From Desmodesmus armatus (Eukaryota; Chlorophyta; Chlorophyceae; Sphaeropleales; Scenedesmaceae), in contig VIIQ02000002.1 of NCBI GenBank assembly GCA_007449985.2, forward strand, positions 1,364,001 to 1,428,000: 64,000 bases of DNA, in the 5' to 3' direction. This document shows positions 8,458-31,307 of this stretch, piece by piece; position 1 is the stretch's first letter; every line of letters starts with the position of its first letter. The notes below the pieces were generated by a model. That model made no database searches, had not been told where the DNA came from, and saw only the letters and a program-made list of their open reading frames with translations. The position numbers and the translations under genes are program-made.

Positions 8458-8466
8458 AGATGGCTC
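8458..8466 (+). repeat. Target-site duplication, left copy
   Basis: AGATGGCTC directly abuts the first base of the first 388-bp repeat. The identical nine bases directly abut the last base of the second repeat at 9319-9327. Such exact framing is the signature of transposition. Confidence 0.85.
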
Positions 8467-8854
8467 TACAAACGTAACTTGTTGACCAGCAAACGACTGG
8501 TGAATACGTGCCACACAGCCAACAGGCGCTGTGGAGCACGGGCAAGGCAGACCGGTTTCGACCCCAGCCACGGGGTCTCATCAGTGCCCTTGAAAGACAC
8601 ACGACACACACACATGCAATGAGTGCATCTCAAGGGGTACTACTGACCATATATAGGGCAAAGCACAGCCCATGACTAAGCCTGACAAATCGGCATTAGT
8701 CAACTGCATGCAGCCAGAAGCTGCCGGATACACCACATGCATCTCTGCATGCAGCCCAGCAGCTAACTGTAAACACTGCAGATATACACCATGCAGTAGC
8801 TCCAAAAATGAACTACTGGGTCAGCAGCATACACACACATATAGTACATCCCCT
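8467..8854 (-). repeat. 388-bp direct repeat, copy 1
   Basis: Begins TACAAACGTAACTTG and ends ATAGTACATCCCCT. It matches 8931-9318 base for base as far as read, at an offset of exactly 464. The 76 bases that follow (8855-8930) belong to the unit but are absent after copy 2. Confidence 0.95.
8544..8591 (-). ncRNA. Type I hammerhead ribozyme, copy 1
   Basis: Read on the minus strand, the universal core is complete: CUGAUGA (8584-8578), helix II GACCCC/GGGGUC with a 6-nt loop (8577-8560), then GAAA (8559-8556). Helix I pairs AGGGCA (8590-8585) with UGCCUU (8549-8544), six pairs including one G-U. The cleavage triplet is GUC, so the cut falls between 8550 and 8549. Helix III is the loopless palindrome ACCGGU (8556-8551), which cannot close on itself well and points to a dimeric (double hammerhead) active form. 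Covariation could not be tested here. Confidence 0.85.
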
Positions 8855-8930
8855 TGTTGATCGATCGACAAGTAGGTCGATATCGTATAGCAGGCGTCGC
8901 CAAGCTTGGGCGGATCTCTGCAGATTACGC

Positions 8931-9318
8931 TACAAACGTAACTTGTTGACCAGCAAACGACTGGTGAATACGTGCCACACAGCCAACAGGCGCTGTGGAG
9001 CACGGGCAAGGCAGACCGGTTTCGACCCCAGCCACGGGGTCTCATCAGTGCCCTTGAAAGACACACGACACACACACATGCAATGAGTGCATCTCAAGGG
9101 GTACTACTGACCATATATAGGGCAAAGCACAGCCCATGACTAAGCCTGACAAATCGGCATTAGTCAACTGCATGCAGCCAGAAGCTGCCGGATACACCAC
9201 ATGCATCTCTGCATGCAGCCCAGCAGCTAACTGTAAACACTGCAGATATACACCATGCAGTAGCTCCAAAAATGAACTACTGGGTCAGCAGCATACACAC
9301 ACATATAGTACATCCCCT
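8931..9318 (-). repeat. 388-bp direct repeat, copy 2
   Basis: Second copy of the repeat at 8467-8854, at the same orientation. It ends exactly at the right-hand target-site duplication (9319-9327). Confidence 0.95.
9008..9055 (-). ncRNA. Type I hammerhead ribozyme, copy 2
   Basis: Identical to the copy at 8544-8591, shifted by 464 bases, with predicted cleavage between 9014 and 9013. On a minus-strand transcript this copy comes first; cleavage here and at 8550/8549 liberates 9013-8550, exactly 464 nt, with 5'-OH and 2',3'-cyclic phosphate ends suited to circularisation. Confidence 0.85.
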
Positions 9319-9327
9319 AGATGGCTC
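9319..9327 (+). repeat. Target-site duplication, right copy
   Basis: AGATGGCTC immediately after the second 388-bp repeat, identical to 8458-8466. Confidence 0.85.
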
Positions 9328-10589
9328 CCCCTAAGACATAGCTGGCTTGTCTCAACATGCGTGCACAAGCTTGTGGTGTTGCAAGTGCCCATTGCCCGCA
9401 TGTGTTTGAAGGATGGCTGGCTGGTGTATTGATAATGCGACTGTACTTTGGGGAGGCACCAGTTCAACATGAGGCTCAAGCTGAGGGTGGGGCAGTGGCT
9501 GCATGTTGGGCCAGTTTGGTACAAAACTCCAAACTAGTGAGAGAAGCATGCACATGGTTGGAATTACTTATCCGATGGCGGGCAGCATCACCAAGTGCTG
9601 GAAGCATTTATGCCAGAAATGGTCACAAGCAGCAAAAGGCAGTACAGCTTTCCCACACATTTGTGTGTAAGACACATGGCTTGATGACGACGCACACAAT
9701 CCTACTGATAGTTAGAGATGGTCTGTGTGTGTTTGGGGGGGGGGGTGAGGGCCTGAACACATCACCGGCCTTTTTTGTATAGGCGCCAAGCGCCGTCTTG
9801 TGTGGCCTGAGGTTCAAGTCATGCTTGCACCACAATTGTTGCTGAATGCATAGCTTGACGTACTGCACATCTGACAGTAGCTCGCAGGCCACAAACTGTC
9901 TGCCAAGTTTCAGACGTTTCTGACAGCCGAAGGGGTGCAGCCCACAACCTGCTAGCTGATGTTTGGGCACAAGCGACAGCAGGGGTACCTGAGTCGGGCT
10001 GCAACCTGCTGGCCGACTTTCAGAGTACTACTCCTAGTAGGAGCGCATGCTGCAATCTTGCTGTACTACGTAGGACATCAGAACCCTACTACCTGCACAT
10101 GTGTCAGCAAGCAGGACAAAGTGGCGAAGGCAGACACCATGCAGGGATACGTCAGTCAACTGCTGACACACCATGCAAAAGTAGTGTGTGTCAATCGTCC
10201 ACCAGCCCAGTGCGCAACCAGCAAGGCAGGCTCACCAGCTTACTAGCCTTGATGCTGGTTGCACAAGTATCATCGTAATAATTGCCAAGCTTGCAAACCC
10301 AATTGGCCACCCCATGGACATGCACCTCTGAAGCGCACAGACTGGTGGTGATACCCACCTGATTGAACTGACGCAGCCTTGCATGTGCCACATGCTGTGG
10401 CACAGTCGGAATGGGGGGCCTTGCATCCTCTTGTGCTCCATAGTTCTGAAACACTGGTGTGCACATGTCAAGCAGCGGCATCAGCGGTGCACCAGACAAG
10501 CAGCAAGACAGCCATGTGTCCAGTGCATGCTGACACCTGCTGCGGCAGCAGCTGTGAAGCACTCATTGGACATGCAAGCAACTACCGCC

Positions 10590-10965
10590 CAGCACGCGCT
10601 CGCGTTGATGGCGGCGACCCCAGGACACACATCAACATGCCAAGCCAGCACGAGTTCGCGTTGAAGGCTTGGCGACTCACACAAAAAGCAACAGCCAACC
10701 AGCACGCGTTGATGGTGGCGACCCCAGGACACACATCAACGGCCAGGCCAGCACGCGCTCGCGTTGAAGGCTTGGCGACTCACACATTAAGCAACTGCCA
10801 ACCAGCACGCGCTCGCGTTGAAGGTTTGGCGACGCACACAAAAAGCAACTGCCGCCCAGCACGCGCTCGCGTTGATGGTTGGCCACTCCAAGACGTGCAT
10901 CAACTGCCAAGCCAGCACGCGCACGCGTTGAAGGTTTGGCGACCCCACAAAGAACATGCAAGTGC
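10590..10965. repeat. Minisatellite, seven units of about 51-56 bp
   Basis: The phrase CAGCACGCGCTCGCGTTGA or a close variant starts at about 10590, 10646, 10699, 10750, 10803, 10857 and 10913. Each is followed by GGCGAC and an ACACA-rich spacer. Units are diverged by substitutions and small deletions. The units are head-to-tail with no unique spacers, so this is not a CRISPR array. Confidence 0.85.
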
Positions 10966-11197
10966 AACAGCCTGAAGCACAAAGACTGGTGGTGTAACCC
11001 ACCTAATCCGGCCGACACTGGCTTGACATCACGGGTTGGGCTGCTTTACTTCTCAAATACTACACACTCAGTCATATGCTGGCTTGAGGTTGTGAGCCCC
11101 TCCTTGGCTGCCAGTGCTGCACTACATCAAGGAAGCAAAGGAAGAAGATGTGTGCATCTCGGAAGTCGTTCGATTGGAGATAGCAGAAATACCTTAG

Positions 11198-13790: not shown

Positions 13791-14207
13791 CCAGGTGGTA
13801 CGCGCCTATTCGCTGCTGCTGCTGCTCTTGTTGCTGGGCTGGTGTTGTCTGTACAGCCAAGGTATTATCAGAGAACCAAAAGCAGAAGATACGGCCTTGA
13901 CGTGGTTGACAAGCTTCAGCCGTGCCTCCTGCTGTGCTGCTGGTGTGTGCTGCTGCTTGCTTCAAATGACAGGTTGGCCCCGCCGGGTTGTCTGCACGAG
14001 AATTCGTATCTACAAAGAATTATTATGACTGTTGTCTAGAACTTCAACCAGACACGCTGCGTCGCAAGCCGATGGCATGCACAAATCAGAACTCAGATCC
14101 AAACCCCACAGACAGTTGGCAACTGCAGCCAATAAGAAAGCAAACATTGGACTTCATCAACCCAACAAGACGTACTATCAACTTGTTCCAAGCCTCTGCA
14201 CTTGTTT
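13791..14207. promoter_or_regulatory. Shared 5' region of SPT4 and the MMAA-type GTPase
   Basis: 417 bases separate the two divergent starts. It includes a CTG run (about 13813-13840). No clear TATA box was seen. Confidence 0.5.
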
Positions 14208-17200
14208 ATGCACGCCATGCTTTGGGCATTCCCTGCAAGTAGTCTGCACCAGCAGGCACCTGTCCAGGCACTCAGGGACTTACTGGCTAGCTTGCAGCAC
14301 CTCCATGCCCTCATACATTCAGAGCAGGTTCCACTACAGCTGCAGCAGTGCTGCATAGCAAGCACGGCAAGTGATCAAGTGCTACAGCACAGTCAGCAGG
14401 GCCAGTCAGCACCACTACCCCAGCTGAACAGCCGCAGCACTAGTCAGCAACAGGGGGTTTCCCGTCCTCCTGCACCACCCAGCTGGTACAAGCCACGACC
14501 ACTACAGCACCAGCACACTGAGCCGCCGTCGAGCAGCCCCCACTACCTGCAGGCCGCACGTGGCTACTCTGCAACTGCTGCTGCCTCCCTACATGCAGCA
14601 GCCACAGCAATGCCTACCGTCCGCAACAGCACCTCAGCAACCGCCACCAGCACCAACAGCAGTAGAACCACACCAACCCCATTAGTGCAGCAAGCGCCCC
14701 CAGCACCAGGCACACCCCCAAGACCTGCCACCCCCAAGCATGTGAGCCCACAACAGCAGCAGCAGCTAGGCAAGCAGCTCGCCGCACGGCACCTGCGCCA
14801 GTACCTTCAGTCCATCAACAGCAGCGGTTTTGTGGAGGGTCTGGCGCAGGGCATCAGGGCTGGTGACAGGCTGGCCATCAGCCGCAGCCTCACTTTGTGT
14901 GAGAGCACGCGCACAGACCATGCGCTGCAGGCAGCGGCACTGCTGCGCAAACTCATAGACAACAACAGCGAGCTGCAGCGGAAGCTGAACCAGCAGCAGC
15001 AGAATCAGCAGCTCGACACGCCGCTGCAGCAGGGGCGGGAGCAGCAGCAGACGCCGCAACAGAGGCAGCCCCAGCAGCAGGAGGAGCCCAGGCCTCTTTT
15101 GCCTGCAGCAGCAGCTCCCAGCCAGCCAGCAGCACCAGCAGCAGTCCCAACAGCAGCCGTGACACAAGGCATCCTGCATCCACAGTATCCACACCCGCCG
15201 TCTCAGGCTGCCGCCAGCAGCAGCCACAGCAGCCTGGCGCTGCGCATCGGTGTTTCTGGCCCCCCTGGTGCCGGCAAGTCCTCCCTGATAGAGACCTGGG
15301 GGTGCTACCTGGCTGACCAGGGCAGCAGGGTGGCAGTGCTGGCGGTGGACCCCTCCAGCATGGAGTCTGGTGGGGCCATCCTGGGGGACAAGACACGCAT
15401 GGCGCGACTCAGCAGCCATGCCAATGCGTATGTGCGGCCGTCACCTGCACGAGGCACACTAGGTGAGACACAGCAGGCAGGCCGCCAGACAGACAGGTTT
15501 CAGCGAGCGTGCTAGACAGGAAACAGACAGGCAGCTAGCACTAGTGGTGCAGGCAAGCGTGGTGGCACTGTACAAGGGGTGGTCAATCAGAAATGGGCCA
15601 AGTGCTGTGCTGTGCTGTGTGTGTGTGTGTGGAGGGGGGGGGGTGCATCAGCAGAGAGGGGACACAGTCAGGGCCGGCTGTAACAACCCATGGTCGGTCA
15701 GACACCCCATGACTCCATGGGTCGCGTTCGGGCTGATTGTGTGCTGCTGCTGCAGATGGGGCATTGTGTGCTGCGAATGTGGTGTGCATGTGTGAGGTCA
15801 TGTCACCTGCCTCACTTGATGCAGTGCTCACCCTTTCATGTGCTGCTGCTGCTGCTGCAGGTGGTGTTTCTCGTGCCACGTTTGATGCCATGCTGATCTG
15901 TGAGGCTGCTGGTTATGACCGCATCCTGGTTGAGACTGTGGGTGTGGGTCAGAGTGAGGTGGCAGTGGCAGACCTGGTGGACTGCATGATGCTGGTCATG
16001 CCACCAGTGGTGAGAGGGGGGGGGGGGAGGAAGGGGGCATGCATACTATTTGAAAAAGGAGGGGCTGCTGCAGGCCATGCCACCACTGCTGAGCCAGGGC
16101 TGGGAGCATAGGGTGCATCAACAAGGTGTGGAAGGGGGGCTATGCTAATCTTCACAGCACTAGGTCACGGCTGTCTGCGTAGCAGTTGTGCATTGGAGGG
16201 TCCCTGACCTGGCCTAGGCAGAAGGATCTTGTGCTGCGTTGCTGTGTGTCTATTTGCTGTGGTGTGATTGGTGTGATGTGATGTGCTGTGTGCTGTGTGT
16301 CCTGCAGGGTGGTGATGACCTTCAGATGATCAAGCGCGGCATCATGGAGGTGGCTGACGTGGTGGCGGTCAACAAGGCAGACGGGGAGACAGAGAAGGCA
16401 GCAGCACGCGCAGCAAGTGAATACAGCGGCTGCCTGCACCTCATGCCACACAGGTGCGCTGATTCGTTTGATTTATGCCAACCATACCGAGTGTGTGGAG
16501 CATATTTGTATCGCTGGCAAGAAACATTTGTCATGCGTCAATTGGTGGCACTATCTGCACACCCAGCCCTCTTTGTGGACCATTGCGCTGGGGCCGTGCC
16601 TTCAAAGTCCAGGTGGCAACAGCACAATGGCAATCTCAGCACCCATCCGAGGGGGGTACGGTATCCCCTCTCACTCATCATCCCCTGCATGCTTTTTATA
16701 CCACAGGACCCCCTCCTACCGCTTCTGCCATTGCTTTGATCTACCTGCAGGTATCGTGCGTGGGAGCCTCAGGCCCTTGCAGTGAGTGCCCACACAGGCC
16801 AGGGAGTGCCTGCGCTGGCCCGACTGGTCAGCCAGTTCCAACAGGCACTCACAGACAGCGGGGAGCTACAAAAGTAGGTTTGTCGGAGGGTTTTGGTGTG
16901 TGTGTGTGTGGGGGGGGGGGGGGTTGCGGGGGCAATGTGCTGGCGCACAACCTGTTTACACCCGGGAGGCAGACAGGGGTGATGGGCACCAGCAGCTTAC
17001 CATAGTTGACGCTGCGGACGTCATGAGGATCATGATGAGGATCATGAGCATCATGAGGCTTTGCAGTTTGGGGGAGTTGTTTGTGCGCCGTTCTGATGGC
17101 GTGTCTGTCTGGCATGGTGCTCCCTTGCTGTGCTCCCACCCACCCTGTTTTGACCTGTGCATGTGTCTCGCACCCTCAGGTGTCATGTGCAGCGTCAGTC

Positions 17201-27529: not shown

Positions 27530-29279
27530 TCAAGCTTTTGGATCAATGCCATCACCAACCTCGTGCAGGCCAGGAAATGCAGACAAAAATGACACCATGG
27601 CGCCATCTGACACACTGTGCTGGCATGGGATTGACAGCGCTGTCAGTTCTTTCAATCCAGTCAGCATAAACAGGCCGACCGCATCCACTGACAGACTGTT
27701 TCCATGCAGGCTGAGCCGACGCAGGCTTGTCAGCCTCCCCAACACTGGCAAGACATCCCGGCACTGCAGGCCACATCCACTGACATCCAGCCACTTCAAG
27801 CCCGTCAATTGACAGGCCAGAGCTGCTACAGCCAGGCCAGTCACCCCCGCCCCAGCATCAGTCAAAGCCAAGTGCGTCAGGTCTGTCAGGCATGACAACC
27901 GTACAGCATCAGCCTCAGTCAGCTCAGCATGCTCCAATACCAAGTGCTTGAGTGCCTGCAGCTGCTGCACGGTGGCCCCAAGCTGCATTTCTGCGCTCCA
28001 GCCCTCTTCCCAATCGCTGCTGTCGATTTGCAGGCATGTCAGCCGCTGGAGTGACCCCAGCACAGCTGCCACATGCTGTGCTTGTTGGGCCTGCAACTCA
28101 CTCACACCAACGGGACCCACTTCATGAAAACAATATCCCAGCAGTAGCTCCTGCAGACCCCGCAGGACTGGCAGCTGCTCAACAACATGCATGCAGACCT
28201 CGGGATGGATGATGCTGGCACACAGCACACCAGATGGCAACTCAGCCTGCACACTCCCCGCCAGCTCCAGACGTGTCAACTGCTGCGGCAGTGTCAGATG
28301 CACAGTATGGTCCTGCTTTGGCCAGCACCAACTCAGCACCTTCACGTCCACGAGATGCTGCAGTGACAGCTTCTGTGGCGGACTGCTTGGTGGTTGGGGC
28401 GCCACTTCACCATGCAAAACCAAGACCTGCAAGCTGAGTGGAAGTTGCTGCAGCGCTGCATCTGACACTTGTGCCCCCTTGACAAGGAGCCTGGTCAGGT
28501 GCAGCATGTTGCTGGCAGCATCGTAGATTTGCAGAGGAAGCTGCTCGGAGCTATCGCGATCTTTCACCAGCTCCAGGCACCGCAGACCCTTGAGGGAGCG
28601 CAGGGCTGCCAGCGCGCCGCCCGTGAAGTGTGGCTGCTGGCCATTGAGGTGAAGAAAGGTCAGGCTGTCTGATGGCTGGATGGCCTGCAGGATGCTTGAG
28701 AGGGAGATGCCGATCAGAGACAGCGATGGAAGGCGCAACGCTGTGGCACCTGCTGTGGGCTGAGCACAGACTGCTGTGCTCTTCTGAGGGAAGGTGCCTC
28801 CTGCTGCTGGAACTGCCTTAGACAGCTTGCAAAGCTGCAATGCTTGCGCGAACAGCTGCCCAAAGGCATCCTCGATCCAGTCATCCTGGTGATCAGGCAC
28901 TGATTGTCTGCAATCCAGTGTCAGCTCGCTGACGAGGCCTGCATGCTGCGCCAGCCAAGCCCCACAGCTGGCAGCTGTGTTCTGATGAATCGTCAAGCAG
29001 ACATCCTGCTGGACACCAGAGTGATGTATGGCTTCTCTGCAAGACTTGCTGACTGTCAGCAGGGTGCACAGCAGCTGCACATTGCTGTGAGAGTTCTGCA
29101 GGATCAAGGGCAGCACCATCAACACCTGAAGGAAACAGCAAGGTGGTAATGACGGTCATTTGAGATACTTTGTTGGGTGCAGAGAACTGCAGAACCACAG
29201 CTGTTCCTGTCTTCACCTTGTCTTCATCCAATGCTGCAGGGCTAAACTCCTCCATGTTGGGCTGGGCAGGGTAGTCCAA
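27530..29279 (-). CDS. Leucine-rich repeat protein, F-box-like N-terminus (paralogue A)
   Basis: Two exons joined in phase 0: 29279-29217 (21 codons) and 29125-27530, giving 552 residues. The N-terminal 60 residues after the intron (VLMVLPLILQ, LLCTLLTVSKSCREAI) resemble an F-box-like helix pair. Many LRRs follow, for example LTRLLVKGAQVSDAALQQLP, LKHLVLEHAELTEADAVRLS, LTHLALTDAGAGVTGLA and LKWLDVSGCGL, of cysteine-containing/RNI type. It is head-to-head with paralogue B, which has the same intron position and phase. A role as substrate adaptor of an SCF ligase is possible but is only inference from architecture. No transmembrane segment or signal peptide was seen. Confidence 0.85.
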
Positions 29280-29513
29280 GCACAGGAAAATGGTTTGAAC
29301 AACAAGCTGCAGAAGGTTTCAAGCAAAGGTATGCATTCATGGGTAGCTCGACGCTCACTTCAACAGCTGTCGTTTACGCGGTTTAAAGATTGTGCAGTGT
29401 CGGTTGATATACCTGGTGAGAGAAAGCCATAGATGGTTCATTCAGCCAGTGTATATGCACTTGGAGATCGCCCGTTCACCTTGGTTCCATCCTGACGCTC
29501 AGCTGGACACAAG
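29280..29513. promoter_or_regulatory. Compact divergent promoter between the two LRR paralogues
   Basis: Only 234 bases separate the two start codons, so both 5' UTRs and core promoters are contained here. No TATA box was evident. Confidence 0.5.
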
Positions 29514-31307
29514 ATGGAGGGCAGACTGCCGCTTGACAAGATGGAGGGCAGACTGATCCCAGCAAGGGCTGAAGACAAGGTAGGTAGCTAGTGTCGATGC
29601 TCCTCAACGGGCTGCGTATCAACGGCACCGTATATCTATTGACACCTGACCTTGCCGTTGGTGCTGATCTTACAGGTGCTAGCAGCGTTACCCCTGATTC
29701 TGCAGCAGTGTACAGACAGCAGGGTGCAACTGCTCCTGCTGTGCAACCTGTTGCAAGTGAGCAAGTCTTTCAGAAGAGCTGCACAGCGTTCGGAAGTCCA
29801 GTGCAGTGTCAGCCTTTGGGTTTCAGAAGGCAGCACAGTTGCCAGCTTTGCAGCTTGGCTGTCACGGCATGCTGGCCTCGTCGGCGATGTTGCAGCAGAG
29901 TGCAACTCCTGGCCCCTTGAAGACCCCTTCGCACAGCTATTTGTGCTGGCAGTGCAGAACTACAAGTTGTCCCATCCTGCTTTCACAGCAGGAGGCTGCA
30001 CAAGCTCGGCCACCAGCTCCTGCGGGCCCAGCACAGCCATCATCAAGCTGTCATCACTGCGCTTGGCTTCTATGAGATTCTCAGGCATCCTGCAGGCCAT
30101 CCAACCAGCAGACAGCCTTACCTCGCTTTACTTTAACGGCGGGCAGCAGCACTTCACAACTGGCACCCTGACAGCCCTGTGCTCCCTCAAGAATCTGCAG
30201 GAGCTGGAGCTGACAGATAACAGTGGCAGCCACCTGCCCTTGCAGATCTACGATGCTGTTGGCAAGATGTCACAATTGACCAGGCTCGTTGTCACTGGAG
30301 CACAGGTGTCAGAAGCATCCCTGCAGCAGCTTCCACCAAGCTTGCAGGCCCTGACCCTGCATGGACGGCACAGGATGCAGCCACCTGGCAGTCACCCAGG
30401 AAGGCTGTCGCTGCAGCACCTTGTTGCACTCAGGGAGCTGGGTTGGTGCTGGCCTAAGCAGGACACGGCTGTGCAGCTGATGCTGCCTCAGCAGCTGACG
30501 CGTGTGCTGCTGGCAGGGAGTGTGCATGCTGAGTTGCCACCTGGTGTGCTGTATGCCAGCATTGTCAACCCAGAGGACTGCCTGCCTGTTGTTCGGAACC
30601 TCTTGAGGATGCCAGTCCTGCGGGGCCTGCAGGATCTGTTGTTGGGCTGTGCTGATGATGGTGGCTGGGAGAGGAGTGAGTTGCGGGCCTCACAAGCACA
30701 AGAACTGGTGTCTGTGCTGGGGTCGCTGCAGCAGTTGACATTCCTGCATGTCAACTGCAGTGGTTGGGTGGAGGGATGGAGCACGGAGGTGCAACTTGGC
30801 GCTGCCCTGCAGCATCTGCAGGCACTCAAGCATTTGCACTTGCAGCATGCTGAGCTGACAGAAGCGGATGTGCTGCTGCTGTCGTGCATGACACATCTGA
30901 CACATTTGGGGCTGCCTGATGGTGGTGCTGGGGTGACTGGTCTGGCAGTGGCAGCTCTTGCATGCGAGTTGACCCGTTTGGTGTGCCTAGACATCAGTGG
31001 CTGTGGCCTGCACTGCACAACTGTCGTGCCAGTGCTGGGGAGGTTGACGCTGTTGCGTCAGCTCAACCTGCATGGAAATAGGGTGTCGCTGAATGATCTG
31101 AGTTTGTCCCTGCTGACTGGTTTGCGGGAACTGACGTCCATGTCAATCCCTTGCCAGCACAACATATCAGACCAGGGTATGGCATCCTTCTTGGCTGCCC
31201 TGCCATGCCTACACGAGGTTGATGACGGCCTTGACAAAGATGTGCCTACCCCTCAGCACATCACGGGGCCTGTGTATGACAACGAGTACGACATGTACAG
31301 CGACTGA
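29514..31307 (+). CDS. Leucine-rich repeat protein, F-box-like N-terminus (paralogue B)
   Basis: Two exons joined in phase 0: 29514-29579 (22 codons) and 29676-31307, giving 565 residues. It is clearly homologous to paralogue A along its whole length, sharing for example SSLASM/SILQAIQP-type segments, LPLQIYDA, LTRLVVTGAQVSEASLQQLP, LSWCWPKQD-like ELGWCWPKQD and LSIPCQHSVSD-like MSIPCQHNISD. The first exon contains an internal direct repeat (MEGRLPLDK then MEGRLIPAR), unlike paralogue A. The C-terminus extends past A with an acidic tail (NEYDMYSD). The inverted arrangement indicates an old inverted duplication. Confidence 0.85.

Follow-up and report, generated by a model that had tools for sequence, protein, structure and literature searches.

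A probable non-LTR retrozyme family with type I hammerhead motifs in the genome of the green alga Desmodesmus armatus

A stretch of 64,000 nucleotides from the scenedesmacean green alga Desmodesmus armatus (hereafter the window) carries on its minus strand an insertion that is very probably a retrozyme of the non-LTR kind. Our explanation as a whole, to which we assign a probability of about 0.7, is that the element is non-coding and non-autonomous, and that its putative hammerhead-cut circle of 464 nt is copied by a reverse transcriptase, most likely a Penelope-like one. At stake is what mobilises non-LTR retrozymes, and whether circles are the template. Both partners reside in one 116-Mb genome, with near-identical insertions, fixed starts and arrays whose common variants look like records of single templates, and the question thus becomes testable in an alga.

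The insertion has a layout of 388+76+388 bp and is flanked by a 9-bp target-site duplication. As stated in a preliminary description of this DNA, its two direct repeats of 388 bp are 100% identical, lie 464 bp apart with a 76-bp spacer between them, and each encodes on the minus strand a complete hammerhead with CUGAUGA, a 6-bp helix II, GAAA, GUC and a helix I of six pairs; one of these pairs proved to be G-U. The cleavage sites predicted there, 8550/8549 and 9014/9013, indeed bound exactly 464 nt, the length of one repeat unit. The features of the insertion, which belongs to a family here called A, are:

8467-9318, minus strand: whole insertion, family A retrozyme; 1.84 units of 464 nt, 5' truncated, RNA 3' end at 8467
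8467-8854, minus strand: repeat copy 1, 388 bp; 100% identity with 8931-9318
8931-9318, minus strand: repeat copy 2, 388 bp; spaced 464 bp from copy 1
8855-8930, minus strand: 76-bp spacer between the repeats; lies inside the unit of other multi-unit arrays, not an LTR-type centre
8458-8466, no strand: target-site duplication on the RNA 3' side, agatggctc on the plus strand; exact 9-nt match to 9319-9327
9319-9327, no strand: target-site duplication on the RNA 5' side; exact 9-nt match to 8458-8466
8541-8593, minus strand: hammerhead ribozyme 1, type I, with palindromic ACCGGU helix III; core 8550-8584, predicted cut 8550/8549
9005-9057, minus strand: hammerhead ribozyme 2, identical in sequence to ribozyme 1; core 9014-9048, predicted cut 9014/9013
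8550-9013, minus strand: predicted 464-nt monomer (the cut-to-cut distance), a putative circular RNA
8467-8549, minus strand: 83-nt tail from the cut to the common 3' end of the family; reverse transcription would start at 8467 (...GUUUGUA)

The unit has a GC content of 51.3%. Its lack of coding capacity, also claimed at the outset, was borne out: the longest M-frames round the circle measure 74 aa (sense) and 92 aa (antisense), and the unit contains neither a long coding region nor a reverse transcriptase frame. Simple box patterns revealed no pol III A- or B-box in the unit and ARAGORN found no tRNA genes in the window, on which grounds a pol III SINE was rejected.

The hammerhead core pattern occurred twice in the window and never in 100 shuffles. 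The strand opens at helix I, which makes the hammerhead type I. Helix II is GACCCC/GGGGUC in both repeats, and helix III consists of the palindrome ACCGGU and nothing more. With only two bases left for a loop, such a helix cannot close on itself, and the ribozymes likely act in pairs, as dimers; dimeric small hammerheads of Penelope-like elements were reportedly described by Lunse et al. in 2017. When an isolated monomer was folded, an inactive structure (-21.0 kcal/mol) was favoured by about 3 kcal/mol over the active one with helices I and II (-18.1 kcal/mol). Judging from the motif, family A RNA probably cleaves itself into 464-nt pieces. The sense unit folded as a circle reached -182.8 kcal/mol, compared with a mean of -156.1 (s.d. 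6.0) for 60 shuffles, none of which was as low (z = -4.45), and the antisense circle reached -150.0 kcal/mol. A hairpin, UUACG/CGUAA, spanning the unit boundary in the circular fold was discarded, because several copies have an A>C change at unit position 6 that weakens it.

A scan with Rfam hammerhead models, as proposed in the preliminary description, reported nothing at gathering thresholds, and a relaxed scan assigned Hammerhead_3 17.6 bits (E = 1.2) against a curated cut-off of 48.5. Both window copies were matched, each at 32.0 bits (E = 1.6e-6 on a rough calibration; next best match E = 0.47), by a covariance model, R1, that was trained on C, D and E, hammerhead families from elsewhere in the genome, with family A left out. 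As these three families were picked by a pattern that fixes the core, the independent support from R1 concerns helix I, helix II and the spacing only.

A search of the whole genome with the unit, likewise proposed earlier, recovered a mobile family. It returned at least 49 matches (40 of 43 candidates scored), from which 20 independent insertions were taken. Excluded from these were repeat matches within the arrays C285 and C71, C671b (the same site duplicated), C180 (rearranged), the divergent relatives L023-L025 and 14 short divergent copies (L029-L042), while the pieces of C431 and C749, split by later insertions, were joined. The C749 copy (L022 1221-2583) is broken by a later unrelated insertion of 954 bp and the C431 copy (L020 1564-2539) by one of 500 bp.

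All 20 insertions have a common 3' end, where the match stops at unit position 464 (...GUUUGUA) or 1-4 bases beyond; in the window copy it runs 9 bases past position 464, through the duplication, and C233 departs from the others within the motif GUUUGUA. This end lies 83 nt after the ribozyme cut. The 5' ends are spread over the whole unit, compatible with a uniform distribution (KS p = 0.15), and the insertions are 95-3008 nt long, corresponding to 0.2 to 6.5 units. Every insertion crosses the ribozyme cut, half of them (10/20) exceed one unit and 7/20 cross two or more cuts, whereas a 5' start within 2 nt of the cut was found for 0/20. The ribozyme core is intact in the listed copies. Exact target-site duplications of at least 7 nt flank 10/20 insertions, while only 2.3% of permuted pairs (88 of 3789) have them, and for those of at least 10 nt the figures are 5/20 and 0/3789; under this strict test the other ten insertions had no exact duplication of 7 nt or more. 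The duplications span 7-19 bp, the longest (19 nt) being that of C749.

Family A bears the marks of retrotransposition: its 3' ends are fixed, its 5' ends are random, and it has target-site duplications as well as copies shorter than a unit. This pattern fits target-primed reverse transcription of a circular or multimeric RNA that begins at one constant internal site. The initial reading as a retrozyme-like element of a green alga thus held in that the insertions behave as products of retrotransposition, but the element is not of the plant LTR type: the hammerhead is of type I, the duplication has 9 bp instead of 4, and the repeat pair is a truncated concatemer of 1.84 units rather than two LTRs.

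Some copies carry further traces at their ends. At the 5' junction of C104 (L017 1400-1443), about four telomere-like CCCTAAA repeats and 11 more bases are enclosed by the duplication CCTGTTGC; their polarity looks as if telomerase had extended a free cDNA end. Among the 14 old short copies, 9-nt common words put the 3' end of L029-L031 near unit position 461, and 6/14 have a common word of at least 7 nt, a figure that stands without a permuted control. For several of these copies the 5' end is close to the ribozyme cut, which may reflect run-off on cleaved RNA. Of the BLAST-defined 5' ends of short copies, 5/18 fall at unit positions 379-382 (p = 0.005), but the one such old copy with a duplication at its junction, L039, starts 2 nt off the cut, and none of the 20 family A insertions starts within 2 nt of it. 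In a search for a LINE partner with a common tail, no reverse-transcriptase motif was found around the 14 tails in frames of at least 250 aa within about 5 kb.

Other hammerhead families are present in the same genome. A pattern search gave 173 matches compared with 53 in a reversed control, some sites being counted twice. In each of families A-E, helix I comprises an unbroken run of 5 or 6 pairs, some of them G-U, and its sequence differs between families. Helix III is ACGCGU in C and E, ACUAGU in D, and ACCGGU or ACUGGU in B, the latter not a palindrome; an apparent extra U precedes helix II in B and F. Family B, with a unit of 949 nt, forms two arrays in a duplicated stretch of C74 and further ones at C389 and C18; all have a single common 3' position, and their 5' starts are, in that order, 107, 226, 701 and 321. 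The duplicated stretch (L047, G000:C74:232900-236500) is a tandem duplication of about 2 kb comprising a family B array and its flank, with the 5' truncations 107 and 226. Family E has a unit of 461 nt and reaches 4.8 units at C567; the 3' ends of C147 (0.93 unit) and C95 fall no more than 3 and 7 nt, respectively, from that of C567, and six of the nine loci, short and divergent, do not extend that far. Family B thus gives a clear repetition of the fixed-3'-end pattern, and family E a weak one. No clear target-site duplication was seen by eye in either family.

The distance from the cut to the insertion end is 83 nt in A, 85 nt in D (3/3 units of L054), 116 nt in E and 252 nt in B. In L054 (positions 1-651, G000:C330), three Penelope-type tails follow one another head to tail and all end TGTCTGTACAACC; the third starts one base before the hammerhead CTGATGA, and the last is followed by a poly-A run. 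A tRNA-like stretch with A-box- and B-box-like sequences comes after a family C hammerhead, directly at the predicted cut of the latter (L049 1-222, minus strand, G000:C71 about 265300-265521). This is possibly a tRNA-derived SINE carrying a ribozyme, of the kind known from schistosomes.

Penelope-like genes that bear hammerheads co-occur with family A in this genome. Eight copies are 69-70% identical to P0122 over nearly the full length and have open frames of 723-983 aa, one with an internal stop. In 17 of 24 copies, hammerhead D lies exactly 163 nt downstream of the Penelope-like gene match. The gene that precedes it has a telomerase-like reverse transcriptase, and all 12 best matches in a fold search with P0122 were telomerase. 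Penelope-like elements with minimal hammerheads were reportedly found by Cervera and de la Pena (2014), and algal ones are said to have been described by Craig and colleagues (2021). In the Anolis Penelope-like element, the RNA is cut 26 bp, and reverse transcription starts 111-118 bp, into the ORF, and this internal start is the preferred mode (PMC11167929). Subtraction of these published positions gives a cut-to-start spacing of 85-92 nt, which families A and D fit and B and E do not.

Taken together, we consider it probable that a Penelope-like enzyme mobilises family A. The competing candidate, a LINE (APE-type non-LTR retrotransposon) acting as it does for SINEs, appears rather unlikely. 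It draws on RVT_1 matches (150 of 627 candidates scored) that lie close to Exo_endo_phos matches in several families, and on the need for a nuclease to make duplications of 7-19 bp at ordinary sites. A nuclear GIY-YIG domain (PF01541) was not found, both of the Pfam matches lying beside psaA in a chloroplast contig, which means that the Penelope-like gene may lack a nuclease; nuclease-deficient Penelope-like types are known. The one LINE-like family whose 3' end was compared (1264 aa, two copies) ends ...GTAACATTTTCTTCCCC, unlike the retrozyme 3' end, and the cut-to-end distance agrees with Penelope-like elements, both of which speak against a LINE. On the chloroplast contig (L051, G000:C38:154900-157100), an exon that we take to be psaA is preceded by a double GIY-YIG frame, which probably encodes a homing endonuclease.

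Sequence variants within arrays bear on the template. C71 carries five variants in every covering unit (6/6 or 7/7); at its site 6, five of six units have A>C and the remaining one A>T, and two variants differ only at the 5' edge. In C285, one variant (site 120) is common to 3/3 units and four are unit-specific, and in C24 five are common to 2/2 units and three specific to one. C703 has two variants common to its units and one specific, and C699 three common ones. The two partly overlapping units of C671a have no variant in common and one unit-specific variant in their short overlap. Each array mostly repeats one template unit, as its units have variants in common. A one-unit circle is the simplest account of such homogeneous arrays, and a homogeneous multimer would also serve.

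On balance we favour a closed circle over a linear multimer as the template. That the template is instead uncut linear multimeric RNA from an existing array, the hammerhead circles having no role in insertion, seems to us the distinctly less likely course of events. In the Anolis assay, ribozyme mutants still inserted in vitro and cleavage needed protein (PMC11167929); uncut RNA can accordingly serve as template, naked RNA may not cleave, and circles are perhaps not essential. Homogeneous arrays such as C71 could yield multimeric transcripts. A linear source would, however, already have to be homogeneous to explain variants absent from the other arrays compared (C285 site 120, C24 site 335), whereas a circle supplies this directly, and conserved ribozymes would then need another reason.

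With a circle as the template, we propose the following sequence of events. Multimeric minus-strand transcripts would cut themselves at their type I hammerheads, probably in pairs, and the 464-nt units would be closed into circles by a host ligase. A reverse transcriptase, most likely Penelope-like, would start 83 nt downstream of the cut, primed by the cut target, and copy round the template for less or more than one turn until it stopped at a random point. Each insertion made in this way would span 0.2 to 6.5 units, begin at a variable 5' position, finish at the fixed 3' end and be flanked by a target-site duplication of 7-19 bp. More tentatively, and somewhat short of even odds, telomerase-related Penelope-like enzymes may in general copy hammerhead circles by rolling-circle target-primed reverse transcription, with families A, B and E as parasites and A imitating the Penelope ribozyme and its tail of about 84 nt. 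If true, this would explain why type I retrozymes go together with Penelope-like elements, and would extend the animal-type retrozyme to the green lineage.

Two other origins of the family fare much worse than retrotransposition. Satellite DNA spread by unequal crossing-over or DNA circles, its ribozyme decayed, would account for the tandem arrays (C71, C285), but is very improbable in view of the fixed 3' ends, random 5' ends, duplications, sub-unit copies and intact ribozyme cores; unequal crossing-over is largely refuted by the 3' ends and duplications. Hardly credible at all are integrated copies of a viroid-like infectious RNA, for which the circle-sized unit and the stable circular fold would speak: the 'new small circular RNA agent' first suggested is not supported as an infectious agent. 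The family is a genomic one whose copies have diverged to many different extents, and neither bacterial plasmids nor viral contigs gave a match (in the latter, for the exact 35-nt hammerhead string only).

Elsewhere in the window, positions 14136-15515 hold an exon of a MeaB-like GTPase gene, for which Tetradesmus obliquus and Scenedesmus are among the nearest protein matches that bear an organism name (89% over 17% of the unspliced query). Two frames on opposite strands at 27530-31307 have weak leucine-rich-repeat matches, and imperfect repeats of about 36-70 bp (GCCAGCACGCGCTCGCGTTGA...) are spaced about 49-56 bp apart at 10576-10975. In the wider genome, a 762-bp repeat (L050) was found on G000:C93, C101, C224, C553, C651-C653 and C791, dispersed and, on several contigs, also head-to-tail every 1.32 kb or so.

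Hammerheads have been noted in algae before. In the available text, Cervera et al. (2016) give type III as the most frequent in plants, with few of type I, and list algal hammerheads as isolated examples (PMC4918200), and putative algal retrozymes are mentioned in a review from 2024 (PMC11722881). The accessible parts of PMC7761336, PMC3088659, PMC10886601 and PMC8490949 contain nothing on algal retrozymes, and none of the top literature matches described a non-LTR retrozyme from a green alga; this holds for the matches covered, which comprised titles and the beginnings of abstracts from an incomplete range of journals.

Compared with known systems, family A shares with plant LTR retrozymes, as portrayed in the available text of PMC4918200 and PMC7761336, two non-coding direct repeats with a hammerhead each, of about 350 bp in plants. 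These plant elements mostly have type III hammerheads, 4-bp duplications and a centre of 300-700 bp with primer-binding site and purine tract, whereas family A has type I hammerheads, a 9-bp duplication and a centre of 76 bp that is part of the unit. SINEs are non-coding, 5'-truncated and flanked by target-site duplications, and family A is like them in all three respects but unlike them in its multi-unit insertions, its ribozyme and the lack of a simple pol III box. Penelope-like elements resemble it in their minimal type I hammerhead, their tandem copies and a distance of about 85 nt from the cut to the point where reverse transcription starts or the insertion ends (Frangieh et al. 2024, PMC11167929); they encode a reverse transcriptase, and family A does not.

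The closest likeness is to metazoan non-LTR retrozymes, as far as the available text of Cervera and de la Pena (2020, PMC7229834) describes them. Both have one type I hammerhead per unit, tandem copies, no LTRs, no coding capacity and target-site duplications (more than 4 bp in metazoans, 9 bp for family A in the window), and the weak helix III of the amphibian elements, which favours dimers, recalls the bare palindrome of family A. The same text proposes LINEs or, more likely, Penelope-like elements as mobilisers. The unit of 464 nt lies just above the metazoan range of 150-450 bp, and the GC content of 51.3% contrasts with values below 50% there, a descriptive rather than mechanistic trait. 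Family A differs in its host, a green alga, and in that its copies are shown here to be 5'-truncated and to end at a fixed internal 3' position. Accordingly, we place the element among the known animal-type non-LTR retrozymes, in a new lineage, the green one, and with unusually clear evidence of its insertion.
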